NCBI GenBank assembly: GCA_017458085.1
Contig: JAFTGE010000010.1
Span: 1 to 58,855, forward strand
DNA length: 58,855 nt
Direction: 5' to 3'
DNA from: Oscillospiraceae bacterium
Lineage (GTDB): Bacteria; Bacillota; Clostridia; Oscillospirales; Oscillospiraceae
Each line of letters opens with the position of its first letter. Positions within the stretch are counted from its first letter, which is position 1. Positions 43,380 through 58,258 of this stretch are shown in pieces. The notes under the pieces are model-generated. The model ran no database searches. It saw only the letters and a program-made list of their open reading frames with translations, and was not told the origin of the DNA. The translations under genes and the position numbers were made by a program.

Positions 43380-45188
43380 TTATTTTACATCTGCCAGAAA
43401 TCCGTATCTTCCGTCTTCCAGCCCTTTCGTGAAGGTGATTACATTGGCACCGGAAGCCTTATAATCCAGTTTTGGGATATGCCGGATGTTTTCCAGGATG
43501 ATTATCTGACCATCGCCCTGGTGATTCATAAAGTATCTGAACAACGCTGTCCGCATGCTTTCCGGCGCAGCGTCATCAACACCCTGATCTAACCCCAGCA
43601 GCGGCGTATCGATAATTGTAAACCCCGGATCGTATACAGCATGAGTTCGCATATACCGTCTAAACACCAGGGCTACAACACTGTTCAGATATGAGCAGTA
43701 TCCCTGTCCGTTTATCTGGGATTTTTTGTGCCCATTAACCTCGATGTCAAAATCGGACATATTGAACCGGGCTGTAGTAAGGTTCTCATAAGCACATTCT
43801 GTAAGCGCCTCTTTCAACATACCATCAAGCTGTTCCTGGAAGGAATCGTCAAAGTATTCTTTCGGATGGTATTCGATATGGCTCTCGTCTTCGCTTGGTA
43901 GTTCGCGTAGATCGGTTTCCCAGCTTGCCGCAAAATCATCGATGACCTGCAGCTCTTGCTGCAGGGAAATATAAGTTCTGTAGCCATTGAGGGATGCACG
44001 GAGTTCTTCCGCCCGCGGTTGCAGCTCTTTTTTTATCAAGGACTCAATGCTATCTCGCTGCTTTTGCAATTCAAGGAGCTTTGCTTCAATTTCAGCTTTC
44101 TCCTGCGCGATGTCCCGTTCTGTTTCAGTAAGGCCATCCATTTGGGCGGTGATGCGGTTTAGCTCGGCTTGTGCAGAAGCTATGTACGACTTTTGATCCC
44201 GGGAGGGGATTTTGCCATCACAAAACGGACAGGTTTGGATCTTGGGGACACGCTTTATTTCAACTTCGCCATTGACAATAAACGAGAGTCGTTTGATATC
44301 AGATACATATTGCGTCTTCAGCGCAGCATATCGGGATGTAAGAAGATCGCATTCTGCCGCTCTGTTCTGCAGGCGGAGAATCTGGCTTAGCAATTCACGG
44401 CTTTGATCCACTGCCGAGGAGATCTCGGCCTCAGTGGACTGAAGGCTATCAATGACGTCCTGCATAGCTCTTTCAACATCAATGCCCTCAAAAGCCTTGA
44501 GGCTGCCCAACAAGCCCTCCCTTTTATCAGCAACCGCCTGGATTTTCCTGTTTACATACTCCTCGACTGCTTTTTTCCGAGCGACACGGATTTCCTTCTT
44601 GGTCTGAGCATCAGCTTCAGCAAAGTCCTTTCCCGTTAAAAGGAACAGCAATGCGGACAGCAGAGCCGTTTTTTCCGTAGCCTGCTCTGGCAGAATAATA
44701 GAAGTCTCCTTGGCAATATCCGCAACATGGAAAAGCAGGAGATGGAGGAACGTGCGCCAGGTAAGACGTTTCTTTTCAAAATTCTTGTTCTTAATAATGA
44801 GGTGTTCACCCTCAATACCAATGGATGCCAGCAGCAGATCACTTAGTATCGGCAAGGGCTCCTTCTTTTTCGTGGGTTTTAGATCGTAGGTGCCGTTATC
44901 GAATCCGGGTACATCAGTTACCACTTCAACCTGATTCTTACCCAATGTACGGGTAATAGTAATGTTGCCTTTCCCCGTGTGGACGCAAAGGTCGATCGAG
45001 GTGTAGCCAAAACTGTCGTCAAACGGCTTGTTATTGCTTCCAAGGCAATAATCGATACATTTGATGATGCATGTCTTTCCCGTATTAGAGCGCCCCTGAA
45101 TAATATTCAGTCCGGGGAACAATTCAATCACAGAGTCTGTTTTCCCGGGGCCTCTGGCAATTACCTTTGAGATATAAAACTCACTCAT
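43380..45188 (-). CDS. Rad50/SMC-like ABC ATPase (ABC-3C-type system)
   Basis: 602 aa. Walker A NIIQGRSNTGKTCIIKCIDY, a coiled-coil arm at about 185-290, a zinc-hook-like CPFC (KIQTCPFCDGKIPS) near 325, a return coiled coil (LTETERDIAQEKAEIEAKLL), then the signature/Walker B segment TIIDTPLLGLDQG and IIILENIRHIP. The layout matches the ABC ATPase of ABC-three-component conflict systems, in which it is encoded with a winged-helix middle component and a C-terminal component. Likely a sensor on DNA that gates the effector. AGGAGG precedes the ATG. Confidence 0.85.
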   Translation of the reverse strand: MSEFYISKVIARGPGKTDSVIELFPGLNIIQGRSNTGKTCIIKCIDYCLGSNNKPFDDSFGYTSIDLCVHTGKGNITITRTLGKNQVEVVTDVPGFDNGTYDLKPTKKKEPLPILSDLLLASIGIEGEHLIIKNKNFEKKRLTWRTFLHLLLFHVADIAKETSIILPEQATEKTALLSALLFLLTGKDFAEADAQTKKEIRVARKKAVEEYVNRKIQAVADKREGLLGSLKAFEGIDVERAMQDVIDSLQSTEAEISSAVDQSRELLSQILRLQNRAAECDLLTSRYAALKTQYVSDIKRLSFIVNGEVEIKRVPKIQTCPFCDGKIPSRDQKSYIASAQAELNRITAQMDGLTETERDIAQEKAEIEAKLLELQKQRDSIESLIKKELQPRAEELRASLNGYRTYISLQQELQVIDDFAASWETDLRELPSEDESHIEYHPKEYFDDSFQEQLDGMLKEALTECAYENLTTARFNMSDFDIEVNGHKKSQINGQGYCSYLNSVVALVFRRYMRTHAVYDPGFTIIDTPLLGLDQGVDDAAPESMRTALFRYFMNHQGDGQIIILENIRHIPKLDYKASGANVITFTKGLEDGRYGFLADVK

Positions 45189-45191
45189 GTT

Positions 45192-45638
45192 TTACCTCCT
45201 CAGAGACTGCACTGCTTTGCCGTTTATTTCTTTTAGCAATGCAGAATCCGACTTTCTGGAGTATTTTGCATCGACGGCTTTTACGATTTCGAGATACTGC
45301 TGCTTGTAGTCAGATTCAAGGCTGTCGACATATTTCCGGCCTGCCGCTGTCAATGCATACAGAAAACCGCCTTGAGTTCGCTTTACAGTGATGAGCCCGT
45401 CAAGGACAAAAGCCTTGACACCCTCAGAGCAGATAGTCCGCTTTGCGGACAGTTCGCTGAAATTGAAGCTATTATCGCCGTGAAGGTTTTTCTGGGAGAC
45501 TTCAAAATCACTACCGTATATGCAGATAAAATCGTATGCAGCTATCCTGTCGATGGTCATTCCGTTGTTTTTTACACCATACAGAATCAGCAGAGCTCGA
45601 AGGCCGGTTTCAAACGGAGTGTTGAACAGCTTATTCAT
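45192..45638 (-). CDS. ABC-3C middle component (winged helix)
   Basis: 148 aa. FNTPFETGLRALLILYGVKN, GMTIDRIAAYDFICIYGSDF, then ICSEGVKAFVLDGLITVKRT and FLYALTAAGRKYVDSLESDY: the compact winged-helix middle component that bridges the ATPase and the effector in ABC-3C systems. Overlaps the preceding gene by 8 nt and is 3 nt from the ATPase start. Confidence 0.82.
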   Translation of the reverse strand: MNKLFNTPFETGLRALLILYGVKNNGMTIDRIAAYDFICIYGSDFEVSQKNLHGDNSFNFSELSAKRTICSEGVKAFVLDGLITVKRTQGGFLYALTAAGRKYVDSLESDYKQQYLEIVKAVDAKYSRKSDSALLKEINGKAVQSLRR

Positions 45639-46329
45639 CGATGTTTACCCACGATTTTATTACGTCATCGTTCACCAGCATGTGACAGATGCCTTTCTTT
45701 TCGAGGTTACCGATCATACCGACGATGTTCATAAGCGCAGACTTTGTCAGCGTCGTACTGGTTATTTTCTCAAGAACAGCCTGGAGTCGTTCATACCCAG
45801 ATTGATGCCGGTCATCATAATAGGTAGTTGATATTCCTTCATATGCGTCTTCCTTGAGAGCGGAAAACTGTGCCTCGCCCTCTGCAAAAACCTCTCGCAC
45901 CGACCGATGAACGCTCTCCGCGCTGTAATATGCTTTTCGCTGATCAGCGTAGAATCGCCGCAAGTTGCCGGGAAGCGTATCAATCACATCTGGGGTAATA
46001 GCCCGCTGCAGCTTCTCAGCATAAACCTCGCACAGGGCATTGATATACGGGAGTTCTTGGGAAGACAGAACGCTCATCGGAGTTAGCTGCACAGGAAGCT
46101 TTATCTGCTCCGTACCCAGATAAATGACCCTTGTTGTGCTGTCGAATCTGGTAGGAACGATAGGGGTCAGGGGTCTGCCAGATTCATCGTAAGAGTCAGA
46201 GCCTCGATCCATGTACACATTCATGCTGAGGTTTTCAACATTGCCAATGTGCATAGGGTGATCACCGTATTGATTTACTTCCGTAGTTGGAGGGGTGCTC
46301 GGCGATTGCTTATTTAATTCTTCTGCCAA
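45631..46329 (-). CDS. ABC-3C C-terminal component-like protein
   Basis: 232 aa, with a TTG start at 46329 and GGAGGTG 8 nt upstream. After a low-complexity start comes NQYGDHPMHIGNVENLSM, also present at the C-terminus of the adjacent 374-aa protein. The C-terminal half (LPYINALCEVYAEKLQRAIT; DLPGNLRRFYADQRKAYYSA-like text; LMNIVGMIGNLEKKGICHML) is helical, as in the small C-terminal component of ABC-3C systems. It probably docks the effector on the ATPase complex. Confidence 0.7.
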   Translation of the reverse strand: MAEELNKQSPSTPPTTEVNQYGDHPMHIGNVENLSMNVYMDRGSDSYDESGRPLTPIVPTRFDSTTRVIYLGTEQIKLPVQLTPMSVLSSQELPYINALCEVYAEKLQRAITPDVIDTLPGNLRRFYADQRKAYYSAESVHRSVREVFAEGEAQFSALKEDAYEGISTTYYDDRHQSGYERLQAVLEKITSTTLTKSALMNIVGMIGNLEKKGICHMLVNDDVIKSWVNIDE

Positions 46330-49084: not shown

Positions 49085-49414
49085 TTACTGCGCCTTCTGC
49101 TCCTTATAGTTGTTTCCCCATTCCTGCATTGACATCAGAATCGGACGCATACTTTCGCCGAGTTCAGACAGGGCATACTCCACCCGCGGCGGGACTTCGG
49201 GATAAACGGTACGGGTAATGATCCCGTCTGCTTCCATCTGACGCAGACTGTCCGTCAGCACTTTCTGGCTGATCCCCTCAAGGTTTTTGTGCAGTTCATT
49301 GAAACGCCAGGGGCGAACAAGGAGATTCCGCATAATAAGCAGCTTCCACTTGTTGCCGATCAAGGAAACTGTCGTTGCCACCGGGCAATCCGGAAGTTCA
49401 TCTTTTGTCTTCAT
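49085..49414 (-). CDS. HxlR-family transcription regulator
   Basis: 109 aa. CPVATTVSLIGNKWKLLIMR, then HKNLEGISQKVLTDSLRQME and VPPRVEYALSELGESMRPIL: the full HxlR winged helix. A conserved Cys near the N-terminus (ELPDCPVATT) lies where the redox-sensing Cys of YodB/HypR sits. Such proteins control nitroreductases and quinone-detoxifying enzymes. It is divergent to the ACGX peptide operon, which includes two nitroreductases and a quinone-reductase-like gene. Confidence 0.92.
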   Translation of the reverse strand: MKTKDELPDCPVATTVSLIGNKWKLLIMRNLLVRPWRFNELHKNLEGISQKVLTDSLRQMEADGIITRTVYPEVPPRVEYALSELGESMRPILMSMQEWGNNYKEQKAQ

Positions 49415-49554: not shown

Positions 49555-49570
49555 GTTACTAAAAGGTAAC
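49555..49570 (+). promoter_or_regulatory. Candidate HxlR operator
   Basis: GTTACTAAAAGGTAAC is an inverted repeat (GTTAC/GTAAC, 6-nt gap). It lies 24 nt upstream of the -35 of the peptide promoter, in the intergenic region shared with the HxlR gene. Assignment is inferred. Confidence 0.45.
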
Positions 49571-49593
49571 CATAGTTATAAAAAAGTGCGTAC

Positions 49594-49621
49594 TTGTGCG
49601 AACTTTCTGCGTCCGTATAAT
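49594..49621 (+). promoter_or_regulatory. Promoter of the ACGX peptide operon
   Basis: TTGTGC and a perfect TATAAT are 16 nt apart, 53 nt upstream of the precursor start codon. Confidence 0.65.
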
Positions 49622-49674
49622 TGATAGTGCAGAGAGCAAAACGCCCTCTGACTACAACCAAGGAGGACATACAT

Positions 49675-49983
49675 ATGGCACTGAAAAACCTGTTCGGATG
49701 GGGCAAGAAGGACGAAGAGAATAAGGCTCCCGCTGCTGCTTGCGGCGCTGCCGAGAAGCCCGCTGAGACTCCCGCTGCTTGCGGCGCTGCCGAAGCTCCT
49801 GCTGCCTGTGGTGCGGCCGACAAGCCTGCTGAGGCTCCTGCCGCCTGTGGCGCTGCCGAGAAGCCCGCTGAGGCTCCTGCTGCTTGCGGAGCTGCCGAGG
49901 CTCCTGCCGCTTGTGGCGCTGCTGACAAGCCGGAAGAAAAGCCCGCTGCCTGTGGCTCTGCCTGTGGCGCTGGCGACAAGTAA
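49675..49983 (+). CDS. ACGX-repeat peptide (probable radical-SAM-modified RiPP precursor)
   Basis: 102 aa. AAGGAGGACATACAT leads to the ATG at 49675. The first 21 residues (MALKNLFGWGKKDEENKAPA) form a leader; then eight ACG motifs follow (ACGAAEKP, ACGAAEAP, ACGAADKP and variants), separated by 9-13 residues of Ala/Pro/Glu/Lys, so each carries one Cys. The block ACGAAEKP - ACGAAEAPA - ACGAADKP occurs twice. Codons differ between copies, so the repeat is kept at protein level. The partner radical SAM enzyme gene is 113 nt downstream. It matches the ACGX-repeat peptide family known from genome surveys; product unknown. Confidence 0.9.
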   Translation: MALKNLFGWGKKDEENKAPAAACGAAEKPAETPAACGAAEAPAACGAADKPAEAPAACGAAEKPAEAPAACGAAEAPAACGAADKPEEKPAACGSACGAGDK

Positions 49984-49989
49984 TCGCTT

Positions 49990-50035
49990 CTTCCCACCCA
50001 AAACCGTTCCCGGTGGGAAGATTCTTGCCGGGAAC
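49990..50035 (+). promoter_or_regulatory. Two mutually exclusive hairpins between precursor and enzyme genes
   Basis: CTTCCCACC (49990-49998) pairs with GGTGGGAAG (50012-50020), while GTTCCCGG (50006-50013) pairs with CCGGGAAC (50028-50035). Both use the 50012-50013 GG, so only one can form. Probably sets the precursor-to-enzyme ratio by attenuation or RNA stability; no T run is present. Confidence 0.55.
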
Positions 50036-50096
50036 CTCGCTTATTACTCGGTCTTACCGATTTATGATAGAAACAAGAAACAGTAAGGTGACAACG

Positions 50097-51185
50097 ATGA
50101 AACAGTACTTTTCCTTCCAATGGCATATCACGGATGAATGTGATCAGCGCTGCAAGCACTGCTATATTTTCTCCGGTGATCCCTGCCGCAAGCTGGATTC
50201 CATGACCTGGGAGCAGATGCAGGACACGTTCTATAACTGCCTCGATTTCTGCGAGGTGTATGGGCGACTGCCGTATTTTTATCTGACCGGCGGAGATCCC
50301 ATCCTGCATCCGGATTTCTGGCGGCTGCTGGAGCTGTTTCATGAGCATGACGTGCCTTTCACGATCCTGGGTAATCCATTCCATCTGAACGATCAGGTAT
50401 GCCGGGAGCTGAAATACTATGGCTGCCAGAAGTACCAGCTCTCGCTGGACGGCCTGCGAGAAACGCACGACTGGTTCCGCAAGCCCGGCAGCTTCGAATG
50501 TACATTGGAGAAGATCGGTTGTATTAACCGCGCGGGTATCCGCAGTGTCATCATGACCACCGTCTCCAAACAGAACTATATGGAAGTGCCCGGCATCATC
50601 GACGCCGTGGTGAAAGCGGGTGTGAACATCTTCGCCTTTTCGCGCTATGTACCGTCAGGCGGCGAACTCGATACTTCCATGACACCGCAGGAGTACCGGA
50701 GCCTTCTTGCCATGTGCGACAAAAAGTTCAAGGAATATGAGGCGGAAGGCTGCGACACCTATTTCAACAAGAAGGATCATCTTTGGACTTTGTACGAATA
50801 TGAGACAGGTACATTCAAAATCCCTGCTTACGCCTGCGACGGCATGATCTATGGCGGCTGCAACTGCGGCAACTGTCACATCACCATCCTGCCCACCGGC
50901 GATATCTACGCCTGCCGCAGGGTGGCGGAGAGCAAGGTCGGCAACATCTTTGAAGACCGCCTCGCAGACATCTGGGTCACGAGCATGGAGGCATACCGAA
51001 ACTACGATGAATTCTCCAAGTGCTCCAGATGCAAGCTCCGTCAGTTCTGCCGTGGTTGTCCTGCTGTGGCAAAAGGCTACACCGGCGATTTCTACGGGGA
51101 CGATCCGCAATGCTGGGCCAGTGAGGAAAACGGCCTGCTGATACTAAAAACGGAGGTACATGAAAATGAAAGCCGTAGTGCTTAA
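50097..51185 (+). CDS. Radical SAM/SPASM maturase of the ACGX peptide system
   Basis: 362 aa from the ATG at 50097 (AAGGTG upstream). The CxxxCxxC cluster is TDECDQRCKHCYIF (C15, C19, C22). A TIM-barrel core (YFYLTGGDPILHPDFWRLLE; YQLSLDGLRETHDWFRKPGS) follows. The SPASM region at about 245-345 has many Cys (ACDGMIYGGCNCGNCH, ILPTGDIYACRR, FSKCSRCKLRQFCRGCPAVA, DDPQCW) that would hold auxiliary 4Fe-4S clusters. It belongs with SPASM enzymes that act on Cys-rich peptides, often forming thioether bonds. Overlaps the next gene by 20 nt. Confidence 0.93.
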   Translation: MKQYFSFQWHITDECDQRCKHCYIFSGDPCRKLDSMTWEQMQDTFYNCLDFCEVYGRLPYFYLTGGDPILHPDFWRLLELFHEHDVPFTILGNPFHLNDQVCRELKYYGCQKYQLSLDGLRETHDWFRKPGSFECTLEKIGCINRAGIRSVIMTTVSKQNYMEVPGIIDAVVKAGVNIFAFSRYVPSGGELDTSMTPQEYRSLLAMCDKKFKEYEAEGCDTYFNKKDHLWTLYEYETGTFKIPAYACDGMIYGGCNCGNCHITILPTGDIYACRRVAESKVGNIFEDRLADIWVTSMEAYRNYDEFSKCSRCKLRQFCRGCPAVAKGYTGDFYGDDPQCWASEENGLLILKTEVHENESRSA

Positions 51186-52113
51186 CAAGATCACGGAAGG
51201 AAAAGATATTGTTCTCTCTGATGTTTTGATTCCTGACGTCCGCCCCGGATGGGTGCTGGTAAAGGTGAAAGCCTTTGGGCTGAATCATTCTGAGAAGCTG
51301 CTGCGGCTCAATGAGATCCGTGCGGACTATATCCAAAAGCCGGTCATCCCCGGCATTGAGTGCGTGGGAGAGATTGTCGATCCCTCCGACAGCGGACTTG
51401 CTGTCGGGCAAAAGATCGTGGCGCTGATGGGCGGCATGGGACGCAGTTTCAACGGCAGTTACGCCGAATACGCCCTGCTGCCGCGCCGGATCGTTTTTCC
51501 GATAAGCAGCGAGCTGTCATGGGAAGAGCTTGGTGCCGTTCCGGAAACGTATTTTACGGCTTGGGGCAGTCTGTTTGAATGCCTGCATTTGACGGAGAAA
51601 GATACGCTCCTGATCCGTGGCGCGACCTGTGCGCTTGGGTATGCTTCCTTACAGATCGCCAAGGCATTGGGCTGCAAGGTGATCGCTACCACCCATAGAG
51701 AGGATAAGCTGCCGCTGATTGCCCAAGCGGACGAGACCGTCATGGATGATGGCAAACTGACGGGAACGGTAAGCGGTGTCACCAAAGCTCTTGACCTGAT
51801 CGGTCCCCGCAATCTGAAGGATACGCTGAGCGCAGTGGAAAAGGGCGGGATCGTCTGCCAGACCGGGCTTTTGGGCGGCGTCTATGCCTTGAACGGATTT
51901 GATCCCATCAAGGACATCCCCAATGGCGTCTATCTGACAGGGTTCTTCTCCAACTATCCGACGCAGCAGGTCATGGATGAAATCTTTGCCTTCCTGCATG
52001 AGAAGAAGCTCGTCCCTGTCAGCGGAAAAGTGTTTGGCTTTGATGAAATCCGGGAGGCTGTTATCGCGCAGGACGAAGGCAAGGTCAATGGAAAGATCAT
52101 TGTAAGAGTCTGA
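51166..52113 (+). CDS. Zinc-free MDR oxidoreductase (quinone reductase-like)
   Basis: 315 aa from the ATG at 51166 (GGAGG 9 nt upstream; the in-frame ATG at 51160 is only 3 nt from it). Medium-chain dehydrogenase fold: KVKAFGLNHSEKLLRL, VIPGIECVGEIVDPSDS, nucleotide-binding TLLIRGATCALGYASLQIAK and KALDLIGPRNLKDTLSAVEK. No structural or catalytic zinc Cys set, as in quinone oxidoreductases. It likely reduces quinone or enone electrophiles with NADPH. Downstream of the radical SAM gene by overlap. Confidence 0.88.
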   Translation: MKAVVLNKITEGKDIVLSDVLIPDVRPGWVLVKVKAFGLNHSEKLLRLNEIRADYIQKPVIPGIECVGEIVDPSDSGLAVGQKIVALMGGMGRSFNGSYAEYALLPRRIVFPISSELSWEELGAVPETYFTAWGSLFECLHLTEKDTLLIRGATCALGYASLQIAKALGCKVIATTHREDKLPLIAQADETVMDDGKLTGTVSGVTKALDLIGPRNLKDTLSAVEKGGIVCQTGLLGGVYALNGFDPIKDIPNGVYLTGFFSNYPTQQVMDEIFAFLHEKKLVPVSGKVFGFDEIREAVIAQDEGKVNGKIIVRV

Positions 52114-52124
52114 GAGGGAATACC

Positions 52125-53006
52125 ATGGGAGCAGAACAGAAAACACAGTTTCAGATTGATAAAACCAAATGCATCAAATGCGGCAAGTGTATCAACACCT
52201 GCTCCGGCATGGTGATCGAGTTCGGCGCGGACGGATATCCTAAGATGAAGGAGTTTGAGCGTTTTGGCTGGCGTGGCTGCTGGCGGTGCCAGCACTGCCT
52301 TGCGGTATGTCCGGCCGGAGCGATCTCCATTTTCGGCAAGAAGCCGGAGGATTCCTTGCCGCCGGCTCCCAAAGAAATGGGAGACTATTTGGAAAGGCTT
52401 GTGACGAACCGCCGTTCCTGCCGTAGGTTCCTCGACAAGAATGTTGATCCGCAGGTAATCACACGTATCCTCTCTGCCATGGCGGCCGCCCCCACAGGCG
52501 GCAATGCAATGGGCGTGGAATATACGGTTATAGACGATAAAGACCGTGTGGAAGCTATTCGACGGGTCGCTTATGCCAAGATGGATGCAGACGCCAAGCG
52601 ACATATCTATACCCACAGCTTCAGTGATTTCTACTATGGGAAAATGAAGGAATCCGAGAAAACCGTCCGCAAAGACGATCTACTCTTCTGCGGAGCGCCG
52701 CACCTGTTTATCGCTCATGAGAAATGCACCGGCAAATGGGCGGAGGACAGCAAAACGAACTGTCATCTTGCCGCCGCCTATTTTGAGCTCCTCTGTAATG
52801 CACATGGGCTCGGAACGACGATCATGAGCTACTCCGCCGAAGTGCTGAATGAACTGGCACCGGAAGCAAGAGCCATGTTGAACATCCCCAAGGATCATTA
52901 CACCGGGCTGATTATCGGCTTCGGCTACCCGGAGATCGAGTATGCAAGAGGCGTACAGAAGGATCGCTCGGCAAAAACACACCGCTGGACACAGGCGCAC
53001 AAATGA
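52125..53006 (+). CDS. Ferredoxin-nitroreductase fusion
   Basis: 293 aa. Two 4Fe-4S modules in the first 65 aa (DKTKCIKCGKCINTCSG; WRGCWRCQHCLAVCPAGAIS), then a nitroreductase domain at about 95-290 (VTNRRSCRRFLDKNVDPQVI; AAAPTGGNAMGVEYTVIDDK; NCHLAAAYFELLCNAHGLGT). Uses FMN and electrons from the ferredoxin part to reduce nitro or quinone compounds. RBS GAGGG lies upstream. Overlaps the next gene by 4 nt. Confidence 0.92.
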   Translation: MGAEQKTQFQIDKTKCIKCGKCINTCSGMVIEFGADGYPKMKEFERFGWRGCWRCQHCLAVCPAGAISIFGKKPEDSLPPAPKEMGDYLERLVTNRRSCRRFLDKNVDPQVITRILSAMAAAPTGGNAMGVEYTVIDDKDRVEAIRRVAYAKMDADAKRHIYTHSFSDFYYGKMKESEKTVRKDDLLFCGAPHLFIAHEKCTGKWAEDSKTNCHLAAAYFELLCNAHGLGTTIMSYSAEVLNELAPEARAMLNIPKDHYTGLIIGFGYPEIEYARGVQKDRSAKTHRWTQAHK

Positions 53007-53518
53007 GCGAGCTGATGTGGGCGTGTGCCATACTTCCAGAAAAGGAAGAGACGGCGATCAAAGGTATTTGCAAGCGACTGAACAAGGGGGTCGGCCTGCC
53101 GGAAACGGTATTCCGGTTCCCTCTGCACATCTCTCTGAAAAAGAGCTGGGATTGTGACAGATTTGAAGCAGCGCAAACAGACGTTGCCGATTATTTGAAA
53201 CACTGCGGAAGCTTTGATATTGATATCGGCAAACCGATTATGCACAGGAATATGATCTGGCTTCCTGTGGGCGTTACTGAGAAACTGCAAGAGATCCATA
53301 ACGGACTTGACCTGCTTCTTGAGCGAAAATATGCTGTGCCGCGTACCGCATTTGATACAAGCTTCCATCCTCATATCAGCCTGTTCACGAAAGGTGATCA
53401 CAGGCATATGGCTGCGATGCATGAGCTGCTTGTAAAAGAGACTATGCCACAAACAGCGCGGATACGGAATGTCGTGATTGGCGGCGCTGTCCATCGGGAT
53501 ACCTACTATACGATTTGA
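53003..53518 (+). CDS. 2H phosphoesterase / 2'-5' RNA ligase-like protein
   Basis: 171 aa. Two H-x-(S/T) motifs, FPLHISLKKSWDC (about 35) and FHPHISLFTKGDH (about 122), mark the LigT/2H superfamily, which opens cyclic phosphates or handles RNA ends and nucleotide derivatives. KPIMHRNMIWLPVG is the usual central strand. Overlaps the preceding gene. Its substrate may be an ADP-ribose derivative given the neighbours, which is inference. Confidence 0.82.
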   Translation: MSELMWACAILPEKEETAIKGICKRLNKGVGLPETVFRFPLHISLKKSWDCDRFEAAQTDVADYLKHCGSFDIDIGKPIMHRNMIWLPVGVTEKLQEIHNGLDLLLERKYAVPRTAFDTSFHPHISLFTKGDHRHMAAMHELLVKETMPQTARIRNVVIGGAVHRDTYYTI

Positions 53519-53529
53519 GAGGACTATTG

Positions 53530-53955
53530 ATGAAATACAGAAGAAACGGCGATCAGATATTGATCCGTATAGACAAGGGTGAGGAGATTCTCGATATCAT
53601 TCGCAAGATTTGCACAGCCGAAAAGATATACGGAGCGGTTTTCTCCGGTATCGGGGCTTGCAGCAAGGCTGTGGTATCTTCCTATATTCCGGAAGAAAAC
53701 GATTTTACGAATCACGAGGCAGACGGCTTGCTGGAGCTGATCTCCTTAAGCGGCAATATCTCACGGGAGGATAATGCGCCCTTTGAGCACACGCATGCGC
53801 TGTTCTCATATTTGGAAGACGGCGAGCAGAAAATGCTGGCAGGACACTTGAAACATGCGCTTGTCAGTTATACGGCTGAAATCCTTCTGACCGTGACGGA
53901 CACGATTGAAAAAGCATTTGATCCAACTGTCGGAATCACGGTATGGGATCTGTGA
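53530..53955 (+). CDS. PPC/DUF296 domain protein
   Basis: 141 aa from the ATG at 53530 (AGAGGACTATTG upstream). MKYRRNGDQILIRIDKGEEI, AVFSGIGACSKAVVSSYIPE, ELISLSGNISREDNAPFEHT and HLKHALVSYTAEILLTVTDT: the PPC fold with its conserved His residues. Bacterial members form trimers, some bind metal or DNA, and the function is not settled. It follows the 2H phosphoesterase gene by 11 nt. Confidence 0.85.
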   Translation: MKYRRNGDQILIRIDKGEEILDIIRKICTAEKIYGAVFSGIGACSKAVVSSYIPEENDFTNHEADGLLELISLSGNISREDNAPFEHTHALFSYLEDGEQKMLAGHLKHALVSYTAEILLTVTDTIEKAFDPTVGITVWDL

Positions 53956-54020: not shown

Positions 54021-54620
54021 ATGGACTTCATGGAAATATCAAAAAAGCGGGTAACCGTGCGGAAGTTTTCGCAGAAGCCCGTTGAAGATGAAAAGATCGA
54101 AAAGATTCTGGAAGCCGGGCGCTGGTCGCCTACCGCTGTTAACCTGCAGCCCCAGCGGATTATGGTGTTGAACACACCGGAGAGCCTGGATAAGGTCAGA
54201 CAGTTCTGCTCCTTCGGCTATGATCAGAAGTATGTGGATCTGGCGAAAGAATGTGACGATAAAGAAAAAGGCAAGGTCAACTTCTATTATGGTGCGCCGC
54301 TTGTACTGTTCGTCGCTTACGACAAAGACGAATGCTGGACGCATCCGCAGAGCGGAAAATCCAGCGGAGCTACGGATGCGACAATCGTTGCCACACACAT
54401 GATGCTGGAGGCGGCAAGCTTGGATCTGGGTAGTGTATGGATCTCATATTTTGACGAAGAAAAAGCAAGGGAATTGCTTGAGCTGCCCGAAAGCTGGCAA
54501 AGCGTATGTATGCTCTACATCGGCTATCCGGCAGACGATTTTGAGCCAAATGCGAAAATGAGCGGCCATCGCAAACCGCTGACAGAAACCTGCTTCTGGA
54601 ATGAAGCACCGAAGAATTAA
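54021..54620 (+). CDS. Nitroreductase-family protein
   Basis: 199 aa. RVTVRKFSQKPVEDEKIEKI, LEAGRWSPTAVNLQPQRIMV, TDATIVATHMMLEAASLDLG and CMLYIGYPADDFEPN: an FMN-dependent nitroreductase of normal size, without the ferredoxin part of the one at 52125. AAAGGAG sits 8 nt before the ATG. Probably acts with its neighbours on electrophiles or on quinones; the substrate is not predictable. Confidence 0.92.
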   Translation: MDFMEISKKRVTVRKFSQKPVEDEKIEKILEAGRWSPTAVNLQPQRIMVLNTPESLDKVRQFCSFGYDQKYVDLAKECDDKEKGKVNFYYGAPLVLFVAYDKDECWTHPQSGKSSGATDATIVATHMMLEAASLDLGSVWISYFDEEKARELLELPESWQSVCMLYIGYPADDFEPNAKMSGHRKPLTETCFWNEAPKN

Positions 54621-54629
54621 GGTGATTTA

Positions 54630-55403
54630 ATGAACCAGACAGAAAAACGGCAGTTCCTGATCAGGCGGCTCTTGGACGAGCAACCGAGATACCGGAATAT
54701 GGAGATCCCGTCTGACGTGATGGAGCAGAGACAGCTCCTTCGGAGTCTCTTCAATATTCGCATGCCGGGTACAATCGATGAAAGCATTCTCAAGGTACAG
54801 GACGAATATCTGCGAGAAGAAACAAAGAGGAAAGGTGTCACCACGCTTGCTGATCTGACGCCTATCCAGCCAGGGCTTTATCTTTGGCAGGGAGACATCA
54901 CGACCCTTGCCTGCGACGCGATTGTGAATGCCGCAAACTCCGGCATGACCGGTTGTTATCAGCCTTGCCATAACTGCATCGATAACTGCATCCACACCTA
55001 TGCCGGTATCCAGCTTCGGATCGCCTGCGCTGAGATTATGAAAAAGCAGGGATATGAGGAACCCACCGGGCAAGCTAAGATTACGTCAGCCTACAATCTT
55101 CCGTGTAAATATGTAATTCATACAGTTGGCCCCATTGTGCAAGGAAGACTTACAAATAAACATGAAAAACTGCTTGCTTCATGCTACCGATCCTGTTTGG
55201 AGCTTGCAGAAGAAAACGGATGCGGAAGCATTGCGTTTTGCTGCATCTCCACCGGTGTCTTCGGATTTCCACAGAAAAGGGCGGCTGAGATCGCAGTACA
55301 GACAGTACGTGATTACAGGGCAGAAACGAACAGCAATATCGAGGTGATTTTCAATGTTTTCAAGAATGTCGATTACGAAATCTACCGGGACTTACTCGGA
55401 TAA
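54630..55403 (+). CDS. Zinc-dependent macrodomain ADP-ribosylhydrolase
   Basis: 257 aa. A helical N-terminal cap (about 1-80), then the macrodomain: YLWQGDITTLACDAIVNAAN, SGMTGCYQPCHNCIDNCIHT (Cys/His zinc site of the Zn-Macro subgroup), NLPCKYVIHTVGPIV and IAFCCISTGVFGFPQKRAAE. It removes ADP-ribose from proteins. The next gene encodes an M-class sirtuin, the enzyme that attaches it; the two genes overlap by 50 nt, as in SirTM operons of other Firmicutes. Confidence 0.93.
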   Translation: MNQTEKRQFLIRRLLDEQPRYRNMEIPSDVMEQRQLLRSLFNIRMPGTIDESILKVQDEYLREETKRKGVTTLADLTPIQPGLYLWQGDITTLACDAIVNAANSGMTGCYQPCHNCIDNCIHTYAGIQLRIACAEIMKKQGYEEPTGQAKITSAYNLPCKYVIHTVGPIVQGRLTNKHEKLLASCYRSCLELAEENGCGSIAFCCISTGVFGFPQKRAAEIAVQTVRDYRAETNSNIEVIFNVFKNVDYEIYRDLLG

Positions 55404-56271
55404 TATCAAGAAGTTGAAGGAAACCCTTATTGATGCCGATACGGTAGTTATCGGTGCAGGTGCGGGGCTGTCCACTTCTGCCGGCTTCGTATATAACGGA
55501 GAACGGTTTGAAAAATACTTCTTCGATTTTGCGGCCAAGTACCGCTTTGCGGATATGTATTCCGGCGGCTTCTATCCCTATGCCACACAGGAGGAGTTCT
55601 GGGCATACTGGAGCCGGTATATCTGGGTCAACCGTTACATGGACGCTCCCAAGCCGGTCTATGAAGAACTGTTCCGGCTGGTGAAGGACAAGGACTACTT
55701 TGTGATAACCACCAACGTGGATCACTGTTTTCAGAAAGCAGGCTTCGATAAGAAGCGTTTGTTCTATACGCAGGGTGACTACGGTCTGTTCCAATGCAGC
55801 GAACCGTGTCATAGCAAGACCTACGAAAACGAAAATATGATTCGTGAGATGGTTCTTTCGCAGGGGTGGGTGATCGGAGAAAACAACGAACTGGTTCTTC
55901 CAAATGGCACTTCGCTGAAAATGGCCGTTCCCACCGAGCTTTTGCCTCGATGCCCCGTGTGCGGGAAGCCGCTGACGATGAATCTGCGATCCGATGATAA
56001 GTTTGTTGAGGATGAAGGCTGGCATCAGGCGGCGGAACATTATGAGAATTTTCTGCGCACCCGCAATGGCAAGATGCTTTTTCTGGAGCTCGGCGTAGGT
56101 TACAACACCCCTGTCATCATCAAATACCCCTTCTGGCAGATGACTGCGCAGAACCCAGATGCCTCATATGTCTGCATCAACTATGGAGAAGCACTCTGCC
56201 CGGAGCAAATCAAAGAACGCTCCATCTGTATTGACGGCGATATCGGAAAGGTTCTTGCGGATCTAATATAA
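55354..56271 (+). CDS. M-class sirtuin (SirTM), protein ADP-ribosyltransferase
   Basis: 305 aa, ATG at 55354 with AGGTGATTTTCA upstream. Rossmann motif VVIGAGAGLSTSAGFVYNG, TTNVDHCFQKAGF, a zinc-site-like pair of Cys clusters (FQCSEPCHSKT; PRCPVCGKPLTM) and LFLELGVGYNTPVIIKYPF. SirTM enzymes ADP-ribosylate lipoylated proteins; the macrodomain reverses it. In staphylococci and streptococci the operon also carries GcvH-L and LplA2, but neither is present here, so the target is open. Confidence 0.93.
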   Translation: MFSRMSITKSTGTYSDNIKKLKETLIDADTVVIGAGAGLSTSAGFVYNGERFEKYFFDFAAKYRFADMYSGGFYPYATQEEFWAYWSRYIWVNRYMDAPKPVYEELFRLVKDKDYFVITTNVDHCFQKAGFDKKRLFYTQGDYGLFQCSEPCHSKTYENENMIREMVLSQGWVIGENNELVLPNGTSLKMAVPTELLPRCPVCGKPLTMNLRSDDKFVEDEGWHQAAEHYENFLRTRNGKMLFLELGVGYNTPVIIKYPFWQMTAQNPDASYVCINYGEALCPEQIKERSICIDGDIGKVLADLI

Positions 56272-56651: not shown

Positions 56652-57851
56652 TCAGCCTGCACTCATGCGCTTCACTTCGGCCTGCGCATCTTCGAAGCTG
56701 ACATGGGTGTAGGTGTTGAGTGTAACGCTGATGTCGCTGTGGCCCATGATGTATTGCAGCGTTTTGGGGTTCATCCCGTTCTATGCCATCTTGGAGCAGA
56801 ACGTATGCCTGCAAACATGGGGCGTGATCTTCGGCAATTGCACCTTATAAATCTTATTGTACTTCTCTACGATATGCTGGAAATACTTCTCCCAATGGAG
56901 CGCGACCATCGGCATCCCGTTCTTATCAAGGAAAAGGAATCCGGAACGTCCGTCAATGATGGGCTCGATCTTTGGCTTTGCACGCGCTTCTAGGATCCTG
57001 CGGAAGCAGGCCTCGACCTCCGGCGTCATAGGCACCATGCGCTTTCCGCTTTCCGTCTTGGTGTCCTCGATCACATATTCCATCTGCGACGTGCGCAACA
57101 GCTGATGGTCAACGATGATCTTATGGCCCTTGAAATCAATACAGCCCTTGGTCAGTCCGCAAAACTCGGAGATCCGCAGGCCGGTATGGAGCAGGATGTA
57201 GATCCCATCATAGTAACGGCAGAAGTGTTTGTCACCTTTTATGAAGGCAAGAAACCTTCGCTCCTGGTCTCGTGTGATGGCCTCTCTTGTCACGCTGTCA
57301 TTCACAATGACGGTGGCAAGCTCAAAGTCAAAGGGATTCTTCCGGATCAGATCATCATCGACGGCCATGCGGAAAGCCGGGCGCAGTACGCCGCGGATCG
57401 TGTGGATCGCGCTGTAGCTTTTGCCCTGTTCCTGCTGCAATTTGATCAGCCAGATCTTTGCATCGGACAGCTTGACTTTATCAATGCGCCGATTGCCCAT
57501 TGGGTCTTTTTCTAAGAAGTTGGTCACAGTCTTATAGCCGGCTCTTGTAGAATTGCGCACCCCGGTCTTGGTGGAAATATATCTTTCGACCAGCTCCAGC
57601 ACGGTATAATTCCCGCCGTTGGAAACGATCTGATCGAACAGATCCGCCTGGATTTTTCGCTCCTTTTCCCGCAAGGGAATATCGTTCTTTCTCCCATCGG
57701 GCGTGCGGTCATTCTTATCCAGTCTCCAGCTATAAACATATCGTACCTGTCCTGTGTGATCCAGATACTTGAAACGATACCTCCCATCTGCAAGCTGCAT
57801 CTCACCGTTGTGCAGGATGCGGTTTCTGCTGTCTCTTCTTTTTTCACTCAC
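56652..57851 (-). pseudogene. int: Tyrosine integrase gene interrupted by an amber codon
   Basis: Related to the integrase at 399. It starts MSEKRRDSRNRILHNGEMQL and runs to HVCRHTFCSKMA, then TAG at 56781-56783, and continues in the same frame NGMNPKTLQYIMGHSDISVT and LNTYTHVSFEDAQAEVKRMS to a TGA at 56652. The TAG replaces the Lys codon of the AKAGMNPK phrase in the intact copy. The truncated product lacks the last His and the nucleophilic Tyr, so it should be inactive unless the amber codon is read through. Confidence 0.9.
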
Positions 57852-57927
57852 GTGGCGGCTCCTTTCTAAAAAAAGCAGCCCGCCATGACATACTCACTAT
57901 ATCACATGGCGGGCCTCTTGTCACGAC

Positions 57928-58194
57928 TCAAAGTGCGCTGGCGTTGTCCAAATACGCTTCAAACTGGCGGCGCTTTATCAGGACGTGCCTGCCGATCTCC
58001 AGAAAGAAATCCCCGCTGGGGTTATCCGCGATAATCTGGCGCAGTTTTTTCGTGCCGATCCCGTAGTAGCGAGCCGCCTCATCGATCCCGATTGTGTACT
58101 TCCGATAGGTCGGGACACTGACCGCTTTTGCTCCTTCGGAAGAAACCACGCTCTCATCCATACCATCTATCTTGCAATTATTGATCATTTCCAT
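57928..58194 (-). CDS. Xis-like excisionase of the second element
   Basis: 88 aa. The ATG at 58194 is chosen (GAGGGAG 9 nt upstream); another ATG at 58203 directly abuts that site. YTIGIDEAARYYGIGTKKLR, then FFLEIGRHVLIKRRQFEAYL: the Tn916 Xis family. It lies 76 nt upstream of the amber-interrupted integrase on the same strand. Confidence 0.85.
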   Translation of the reverse strand: MEMINNCKIDGMDESVVSSEGAKAVSVPTYRKYTIGIDEAARYYGIGTKKLRQIIADNPSGDFFLEIGRHVLIKRRQFEAYLDNASAL

Positions 58195-58258
58195 CAGCAA
58201 CATCTCCCTCTTAAAAAATCTCTATGCTTTTTCTTTCTCATCGCGTGCGTTTGGAATA

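Follow-up and report, generated by a model that had tools for sequence, protein, structure and literature searches.

A cysteine-repeat peptide and its radical SAM enzyme lie in a conserved cassette with an HxlR-type regulator and oxidoreductases, suggesting a stress role inside the cell

What is a short peptide with eight Ala-Cys-Gly (ACG) motifs for, and where does it act? This question is raised by a 58,855-nucleotide stretch of DNA from an Oscillospiraceae bacterium (assembly GCA_017458085.1, contig JAFTGE010000010.1, positions 1-58,855; hereafter the window), in which the gene for such a peptide, acgA, is followed by the gene for a radical S-adenosylmethionine (SAM) enzyme with a SPASM domain, acgM. 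A first-pass annotation had described the two as a system for a ribosomally synthesised and post-translationally modified peptide (RiPP) of unknown product. Our analysis of the surrounding cassette suggests, from its gene content, a stress-response carrier acting inside the cell rather than a secreted antibiotic.

The 102-residue peptide is real and lies where it had been placed (Table 1). Its gene starts with an ATG codon preceded by an AAGGAGG site, and the eight ACG motifs put Cys at residues 23, 36, 45, 58, 71, 80, 93 and 97. The regular spacing noted earlier was confirmed apart from the last pair: successive Cys are 13, 9, 13, 13, 9, 13 and 4 residues apart, a 13/9 pattern closed by a CGSAC pair. 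Chance alone would fall far short of eight ACG motifs in a peptide of this composition: across 20,000 shuffles of the acgA residues the motif appeared 0.33 times on average and never more than four times, and acgA is alone among the 469 stop-to-stop stretches of at least 60 amino acids in the window in having three or more. The peptide, encoded directly upstream of acgM, clears the cut-off of NCBIfam model TIGR04341 (28 bits). The description of the enzyme also held: acgM carries the CxxxCxxC motif (C15-x3-C19-x2-C22) in a radical SAM domain that begins at residue 11, and a Cys-rich C-terminal part, with ten invariant Cys and one nearly so in the second half of 26 aligned sequences (the window and 25 of the 46 distinct full-length relatives). 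It exceeds the TIGR04340 cut-off of 400 bits, and the window genome has a single ACGX copy above the cut-offs.

The pairing of peptide and enzyme was therefore upheld, and it already has a name. RefSeq calls the genes acgA and acgM, and NCBIfam titles their families 'ACGX-repeat peptide' and 'radical SAM/SPASM domain protein, ACGX system'; the window pair is a member of this catalogued, uncharacterised family. A search of the open-access literature, with most subscription papers and all preprints outside its scope, found no paper describing the pair (TIGR04340/TIGR04341, acgA/acgM), nor any on a class-M sirtuin (SirTM) with HxlR, on a ranthipeptide with HxlR, or on combinations of macrodomain, sirtuin, HxlR and radical SAM genes. 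To the family as named we add a conserved regulator with an operator-like site, an oxidoreductase rule, a SirTM/macrodomain linkage, a Cys/acid rule and an archaeal form, all of which look new as judged from open papers.

To place the window pair among its relatives, two samples were used. A pattern search returned 48 loci in species-level genomes, mostly from Clostridia of the gut and rumen but also from a few Erysipelotrichaceae and from Fretibacterium fastidiosum, making 49 with the window; the patterns were taken from the window enzyme, so this set is biased to close relatives, and it includes near-copies (L029-L032). A class sample of 391 genomes is less biased, yet genera recur in it. 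The peptide precedes the enzyme in all 42 loci with enough contig (41 scored by script, L043 by reading), with 25-356 bases between the peptide stop and the enzyme; of the other loci, L024 retains the peptide end only and six are cut. In the class sample acgM exceeded its cut-off in 16 genomes and the peptide was present in 17, both occurring in 15. Genome G332 has acgM and a peptide that the TIGR04341 model missed and that was found by reading. Peptides lacking an enzyme, which the first-pass annotation had held would count against it, turned up in two of the 17 peptide-bearing genomes. In G215, a fragmentary assembly, the contig stops just after the peptide. G197 retains a shortened peptide, HxlR, a PNPOx/ferredoxin gene, a macrodomain and SirTM with no acgM, and is a decayed cassette that lost its enzyme gene.

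The constant company of acgM, which is found next to each full peptide wherever the contig extends that far, argues against an unmodified or lightly modified scaffold whose free Cys buffer thiols or bind metal under stress. Metallothionein Cys occur in clusters, unlike the window Cys, which are 9 or 13 residues apart save for the last pair. Free Cys would suit redox use better than thioethers, many of the peptides terminate in a CGxxC pair, and HxlR/DUF24 regulons answer thiol stress according to the sections available of PMC6943732; even so, we consider such a scaffold improbable.

The peptides themselves point to where the enzyme may act. Statistics were drawn from 50 distinct peptides with 301 Cys, excluding the partial peptide of L024, that of G051, two plasmid peptides and the archaeal peptide. 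The number of Cys per peptide varies freely from 3 to 10, and their context is nearly fixed, with Ala before Cys in 296/301 and Gly after it in 300/301. Four residues on (+4) stands Asp or Glu in 211 cases, Cys in 82, Gly in 5 and Pro in 1, two falling past the end, and acids at +1 to +3, +5 and +6 reach at most 3%. Where two Cys form a C-X3-C pair (57 pairs in 37 peptides), the second has an acid at +4 in 52. The Cys/acid unit survives among foreign leaders or spacers in G332 (ACGAGD, ACGASD), in G142 and G265 (PAPS spacers) and in G296. PapB, the maturase of the PapA/PapB (freyrasin) ranthipeptide system, joins Cys-X3-Asp/Glu units and accepts Cys-Xn-Asp with n = 0-6, according to the part of PMC9413430 available. 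The ACGX system shares with it both the repeated units and a SPASM radical SAM enzyme, and by this analogy we lean slightly towards acgM making a Cys-to-acid ring. Cys-centred crosslinks, as first proposed, are plausible; the number proposed, eight, should be lowered. The window peptide has Cys-X3-Asp/Glu at seven of its eight Cys, and because C93 has Cys97 and no acid at +4, seven ring sites are predicted.

A different product, such as a Cys-alpha carbon or C-C bond, an epimer or a thiazoline-like ring, with the +4 acid aiding binding only, was also considered. The top non-self NCBIfam match of acgM is SbtM (TIGR04082, thio(seleno)oxazole modification), at 164.8 bits under half its cut-off of 350, and the flanking Ala and Gly are kept more strictly than the acid. 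Against this, the acid at +4 (+3 in the archaeal peptide) persists through complete changes of spacer, with only 3% acidic residues at +5/+6, and we regard a different bond as rather unlikely. The SCIFF maturase CteB and the sactipeptide-type SkfB show low similarity to acgM (PDB profile E 1.8e-10 and 2.5e-15), and the ACGX system differs from theirs in its free repeat number and in a radical SAM domain starting at residue 11. The PapB structure was absent among the structure matches listed for acgM, which carries no weight.

How expression of the pair is controlled is suggested by the region upstream. A divergent HxlR gene precedes the peptide in 42/42 readable loci (7 of the 49 are cut), and the window protein has the features of the HxlR/DUF24 class, namely an HxlR domain and a conserved N-terminal Cys; on the RrpB model it scores 120.5 bits, under the cut-off of 175. 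This Cys (Cys10) is kept in all 44 genes compared, two plasmids included. In the class members HypR, YodB and CatR the N-terminal Cys senses HOCl, quinones and diamide (PMC6943732, sections available). Between regulator and peptide lies a conserved stretch, GTTACaaaaaGGTGAC...AAAAAGTGCGTACTT, with the core AAAAAGTGCGTACTT found at 0-2 mismatches in 39 of 41 loci (21 exact). Shuffled upstream regions give 4-7 mismatches, so that of the two remaining loci, L041 (3 mismatches) and L051 (4), the latter is no better than chance by core alone. In L009, L013 and L050 the sequence can be seen in tandem.

SirTM loci that lack an intact ACGX pair supplied nine intergenic regions next to HxlR genes, from the eight HxlR-bearing loci of L083-L101 and the decayed L082. 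Six of these regions hold the same core with 0-3 mismatches; the other three (L092, L091 and L098) have 4, 5 and 7 mismatches. Within the window genome the exact core is found at ACGX only. A one-mismatch core on contig C109 precedes a shortened acgM-like frame and a ferredoxin-nitroreductase, with a SirTM paralogue on the same contig, and on C49 a two-mismatch core separates an HxlR gene from another SirTM. The C109 frame (L103 2389-2802; 137 aa) resembles acgM model positions 23-92 without CxxxCxxC (42.1 bits). In four named genomes there are seven core copies with at most one mismatch, four of them ACGX sites and one, in Fretibacterium, before another HxlR-like frame.

Just after the presumed -10 box, the leaders share a hairpin supported by covariation. 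Over 38 distinct leaders 72.1% of cells were paired, compared with 23-46% when the pairing was slid; the score was 0.262 (0.142 in shuffles), with 37 two-sided changes (16.6 in shuffles). The alignment places several rows wrongly, and the hairpin is missing from L029; a subset of 27 leaders chosen and trimmed by hand reached 84.9%, and we prefer the full-set value. The hairpin may protect the peptide mRNA at its 5' end. The window also has a stem-loop in the acgA-acgM gap (49984-50096; -31 kcal/mol, z -2.2, from the window sequence alone) without a T run, which could set a high peptide:enzyme ratio.

Downstream of acgM, an oxidoreductase gene starts within 1.3 kb in all 44 loci with that much DNA, and within 250 bases in 40; in L015, L024, L046 and L054 it lies about 600 bases away, with space for one other gene. 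It encodes an MDR dehydrogenase, a nitroreductase or a PNPOx/ferredoxin protein, domain names being verified on the window and two plasmids. The window MDR protein scores 137.8 bits on the PIG3 quinone-oxidoreductase model, under its cut-off of 296.8. Four neighbouring gene pairs overlap in the window, which suggests one operon.

These recurring genes bear on whether the product leaves the cell. A secreted or surface RiPP, a bacteriocin or signal of the sactipeptide or SCIFF-ranthipeptide kind with unlinked cleavage and export, would agree with the RiPP maturase fold of acgM, and SCIFF peptides are listed with a quorum-sensing role, their active form being called open, in the part of PMC8326336 available. 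The lack of a protease or exporter gene beside the window pair, remarked on in the first-pass annotation, was borne out, and none was recognised among the recurring neighbours of the 49 loci (about 20 families judged by eye, single-copy neighbours not annotated). An ABC-ATPase-like family lies near acgM in just three loci, and only the Roseburia plasmid has an MFS transporter behind its HxlR gene. It is HxlR and oxidoreductases that recur, and neither a double-Gly motif nor a signal peptide was recognised by eye at the N-terminus of the window peptide. We judge a secreted product to have little chance of being correct. The destination, left open before, is now less so: HxlR, the operator-like site and the oxidoreductases point to an intracellular stress role, and SirTM and a macrodomain end the cassette.

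This last pair gives the cassette a second setting. The window macrodomain is of the zinc-dependent type, and the SirTM gene overlaps it; the SirTM has Gln in place of the usual catalytic His, its TQGDYGLFQCS aligning to QGEYGLWQCS of PDB 5a3a (SIR2 family protein), which we take to be the SpySirTM structure. Among 34 loci with at least 4.5 kb downstream, the macrodomain is present in 19, SirTM in 22, both in 18 and at least one in 23. In the class sample both genes occur in 16/16 acgM genomes, against 71/391 for the macrodomain and 66/391 for SirTM overall (Fisher 3e-13 for macrodomain-acgM co-occurrence, uncorrected for kinship). Thirteen of the 16 have the macrodomain on the same strand less than 5 kb downstream, G316 and G296 have it elsewhere in the genome, and the G332 contig stops 1.7 kb on. 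Of 12 genomes without a macrodomain at the fetched locus, six have one elsewhere. SirTM is thus a frequent and not a required partner, because some ACGX loci and genomes lack the pair.

The cassette recalls the extended SirTM operon of Rack et al., which comprises GcvH-L, LplA2, the zinc macrodomain, SirTM, OYE and LLM. In staphylococci and streptococci this operon is linked to oxidative stress and encodes oxidoreductases along with a carrier that bears sulfur and the enzyme that modifies it (PMC4518038 and PMC11490716, as far as the sections available go). Adjacent SirTM and zinc macrodomain genes, oxidoreductases, a small protein with a modifying enzyme and, in the sections available, the link to oxidative stress are common to both; the ACGX cassette has a Cys-repeat peptide and a radical SAM enzyme for GcvH-L and LplA2, other oxidoreductases and an HxlR regulator. 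By analogy with the operon as described there, the cassette would follow the same logic with other parts. According to the part of PMC11490716 available, SirTM targets outside the extended operon are still elusive, and the cassette offers a concrete candidate encoded beside SirTM itself.

On this analogy, the modified ACGX peptide could serve as the carrier in place of lipoyl-GcvH-L, receiving ADP-ribose from SirTM on its many Asp/Glu or on the modified unit and being cleared of it by the zinc macrodomain. We think this doubtful, and equally so its extension, in which ADP-ribosylation would gate a peptide-borne sulfur cofactor for the adjacent oxidoreductase under electrophile stress. Fairly probable instead is that shared regulation alone explains the linkage, HxlR-controlled stress genes gathering in a mobile cassette whose peptide is never ADP-ribosylated. 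Nineteen SirTM/macrodomain loci without ACGX (L083-L101) carry HxlR in eight cases and a PNPOx-like gene in seven, and no Cys-repeat peptide was found in the 18 of them that were scanned. ACGX also occurs without SirTM or macrodomain, and its linked members do not group as a single clade in the trees built from 42 macrodomains and from 45 SirTMs. On the other side, linkage is found with two far-apart SirTM lineages and well-supported branches force at least three changes in the macrodomain tree and at least six in the SirTM tree, which could also mean a working partnership. The GcvH target family is clear (>100 bits) in just one of 16 ACGX genomes, though in only 4/50 other SirTM genomes.

Two stronger forms of the partnership were rejected. 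A special ACGX-tied SirTM/macrodomain lineage was not found; the labels cluster somewhat (1 and 9 of 500 shuffles as low), yet form no clade. GcvH absence as an ACGX-specific sign was dropped given its rarity in the other SirTM genomes; GCV_H had no match in the window genome (93.5% complete), and weak matches of 22-29 bits, over the Pfam cut-off, added two more of the 16 genomes and 12 more of the 50. No LplA was seen among the identified cassette genes in general domain scans, no search aimed at LplA having been made.

Plasmids and an archaeon delimit the core of the cassette. Plasmids of Roseburia sp. 831b, whose gene order is closely similar to that of the window, and of Subdoligranulum variabile carry HxlR, acgA, acgM, nitroreductase, PNPOx/ferredoxin, macrodomain and SirTM genes. 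An archaeal plasmid from Methanosphaera has genes for HxlR (66.4 bits; N-terminal Cys kept), a PNPOx/ferredoxin protein, the peptide, acgM (split into two annotated pieces that score 203 and 328 bits against TIGR04340) and a zinc-binding dehydrogenase; neither SirTM nor macrodomain was present in the 15 kb read. Its peptide, missed by TIGR04341, has seven C-G-x-E units with the acid at +3. These gene sets indicate a core of regulator, peptide, enzyme and oxidoreductase, to which the ADP-ribose pair is added in many hosts, in a module that spans several bacterial lineages, plasmids and one archaeon. A phage or virus origin of the pair was rejected, with no relative in viral_contigs and none of three pattern matches confirmed.

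From gene order, protein identities, the conservation of the operator-like site and hairpin, and the Cys/acid rule, we infer the following regulation, ring chemistry, cell location and partner enzymes. The HxlR/DUF24 protein with its sensing Cys would bind the operator-like site, with electrophile or disulfide stress as its signal. The peptide would be made, and acgM would then join each Cys to the acid four places on in C-G-x-x-[DE], closing a separate, independent ring in each repeat, in the way that PapB acts on PapA. The working part would be the repeat unit and not a fixed fold, which fits because repeat number varies freely. The finished peptide would stay in the cell and work with the adjacent NAD(P)H/flavin oxidoreductase; more speculatively, the SirTM/zinc-macrodomain pair may add and remove ADP-ribose on the peptide or another stress target. 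That the cassette is a redox or electrophile-stress operon seems to us highly probable; that it is one in which an intracellular Cys-repeat peptide receives Cys-to-acid thioether rings, the whole taken together, stands at about even chances. The orphan radical SAM family would thereby gain a likely regulator (HxlR), a reaction site (Cys with an acid at +3/+4) and a site of action inside the cell.

Several observations weigh against this combined reading. If every Cys became a thioether no thiol would be left, so a redox use is not obvious. Binding of the operator-like site by HxlR is presumed from sequence, and the core also occurs away from the kinds of gene seen beside it on C109 and C49, with one mismatch on contig C119 and two on C52, C53, C62, C71 and C76; 15 of the 24 matches in the window genome are one identical variant, probably a dispersed repeat (a reversed control pattern gave seven), and two of the seven copies in the four named genomes lie at unrelated genes. 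On the chemistry, +4 is not the sole acidic place, with acids also common at +8 (197/254) and -5 (160/301) and further ones at -6 (85/301) and +7 (62/255). In eight of the 50 peptides a unit lacks both an acid and a Cys at +4, the ring partner is ambiguous in the 82 of 301 cases where +4 is Cys, and repeat duplication or another role could account for the constancy of the Cys-acid spacing. PapB has an N-terminal recognition domain for which acgM has no room, acgM scores only 67.8 bits on the PapB model NF047865 (cut-off 340), and the A-C-G context and stress-operon setting are foreign to PapA/PapB. As to the ADP-ribose pair, neither gene is nearby in 11 of the 34 loci, no full-length zinc macrodomain was found in the other six of the 12 genomes mentioned above, the complete Fretibacterium genome included, and the fragmentary G215 is missing from the lists of both macrodomain and SirTM genomes.

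Table 1. Features of the ACGX cassette in the window
Feature	Position	Strand	Evidence
HxlR/DUF24 regulator (RrpB-like), divergent, N-terminal Cys10	49085..49414	-	PF01638 112.3 bits
Operator-like sequence GTTACTAAAAGGTAACCATAGTTATAAAAAAGTGCGTACTT, presumed HxlR site	49555..49595	+	
TATAAT, presumed -10 box	49616..49621	+	by eye
5' leader hairpin, presumed transcript start	49630..49650	+	covariation over 38 distinct leaders
acgA, ACGX-repeat peptide	49675..49983	+	102 aa, 8 Cys, 7 in C-G-x-x-[DE]; TIGR04341 94.9 bits
acgM, radical SAM/SPASM enzyme, ACGX system	50097..51185	+	362 aa; TIGR04340 586.8 bits; Pfam Radical_SAM and SPASM; model pLDDT 84
Zinc-binding-dehydrogenase-type oxidoreductase (MDR), overlaps acgM end	51160..52113	+	PF08240, PF00107, PF13602
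Ferredoxin-nitroreductase fusion	52125..53006	+	PF00881 73.1 bits and 4Fe-4S domains
2'-5' RNA ligase superfamily protein	53003..53518	+	PF13563 37.7 bits
PCC-domain protein	53515..53955	+	PF03479 79.8 bits
Nitroreductase	54021..54620	+	PF00881 122.9 bits
Zinc-dependent macrodomain (protein-ADP-ribose hydrolase)	54630..55403	+	NF003163 365.9 bits, cut-off 272; PDB 8rsi E 1.4e-84
Class-M sirtuin (SirTM), overlaps macrodomain gene	55354..56271	+	PDB 5a3a E 7.9e-66

Among the remaining cassette genes, those for the 2'-5' RNA ligase and PCC-domain proteins follow acgM in just two of the 49 loci, the window and L008. A DUF1848 protein recurs in SirTM/macrodomain or ACGX cassettes (L009, L014, L020, L048, L050, L073, L084, L087 and L133; the L133 copy matches PF08902 at 327 bits). 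Sister enzymes in G180, G112 and G348 (285-308 bits, below the TIGR04340 cut-off) showed no ACGX peptide nearby and were excluded from all counts; in G180 an AgrB gene (138 bits) adjoins that for the enzyme. Two such enzymes, L070 2597-3232 and L072 2562-3161, lie beside AgrB (138 bits in L070, by eye in L072) and a small two-Cys peptide, possibly a modified autoinducer system.

BREX genes (brxL, pglZ) lie a few kb from the archaeal cassette (L135 12287-15013). In the window, a Tn916-type integrase and an excisionase (56781-58203) directly adjoin the cassette. A prophage-type region (399-42198) encodes a Tn916-type integrase, tail, tape measure, capsid, portal, terminase and DNA polymerase A proteins, two C5 methylases and one S-adenosylmethionine synthetase, and it is followed at 43380-46329 by LmuB, LmuC and LmuA-like genes (Lamassu defence models 797, 178 and 227 bits; Pfam MC2 of ABC-three-component systems).

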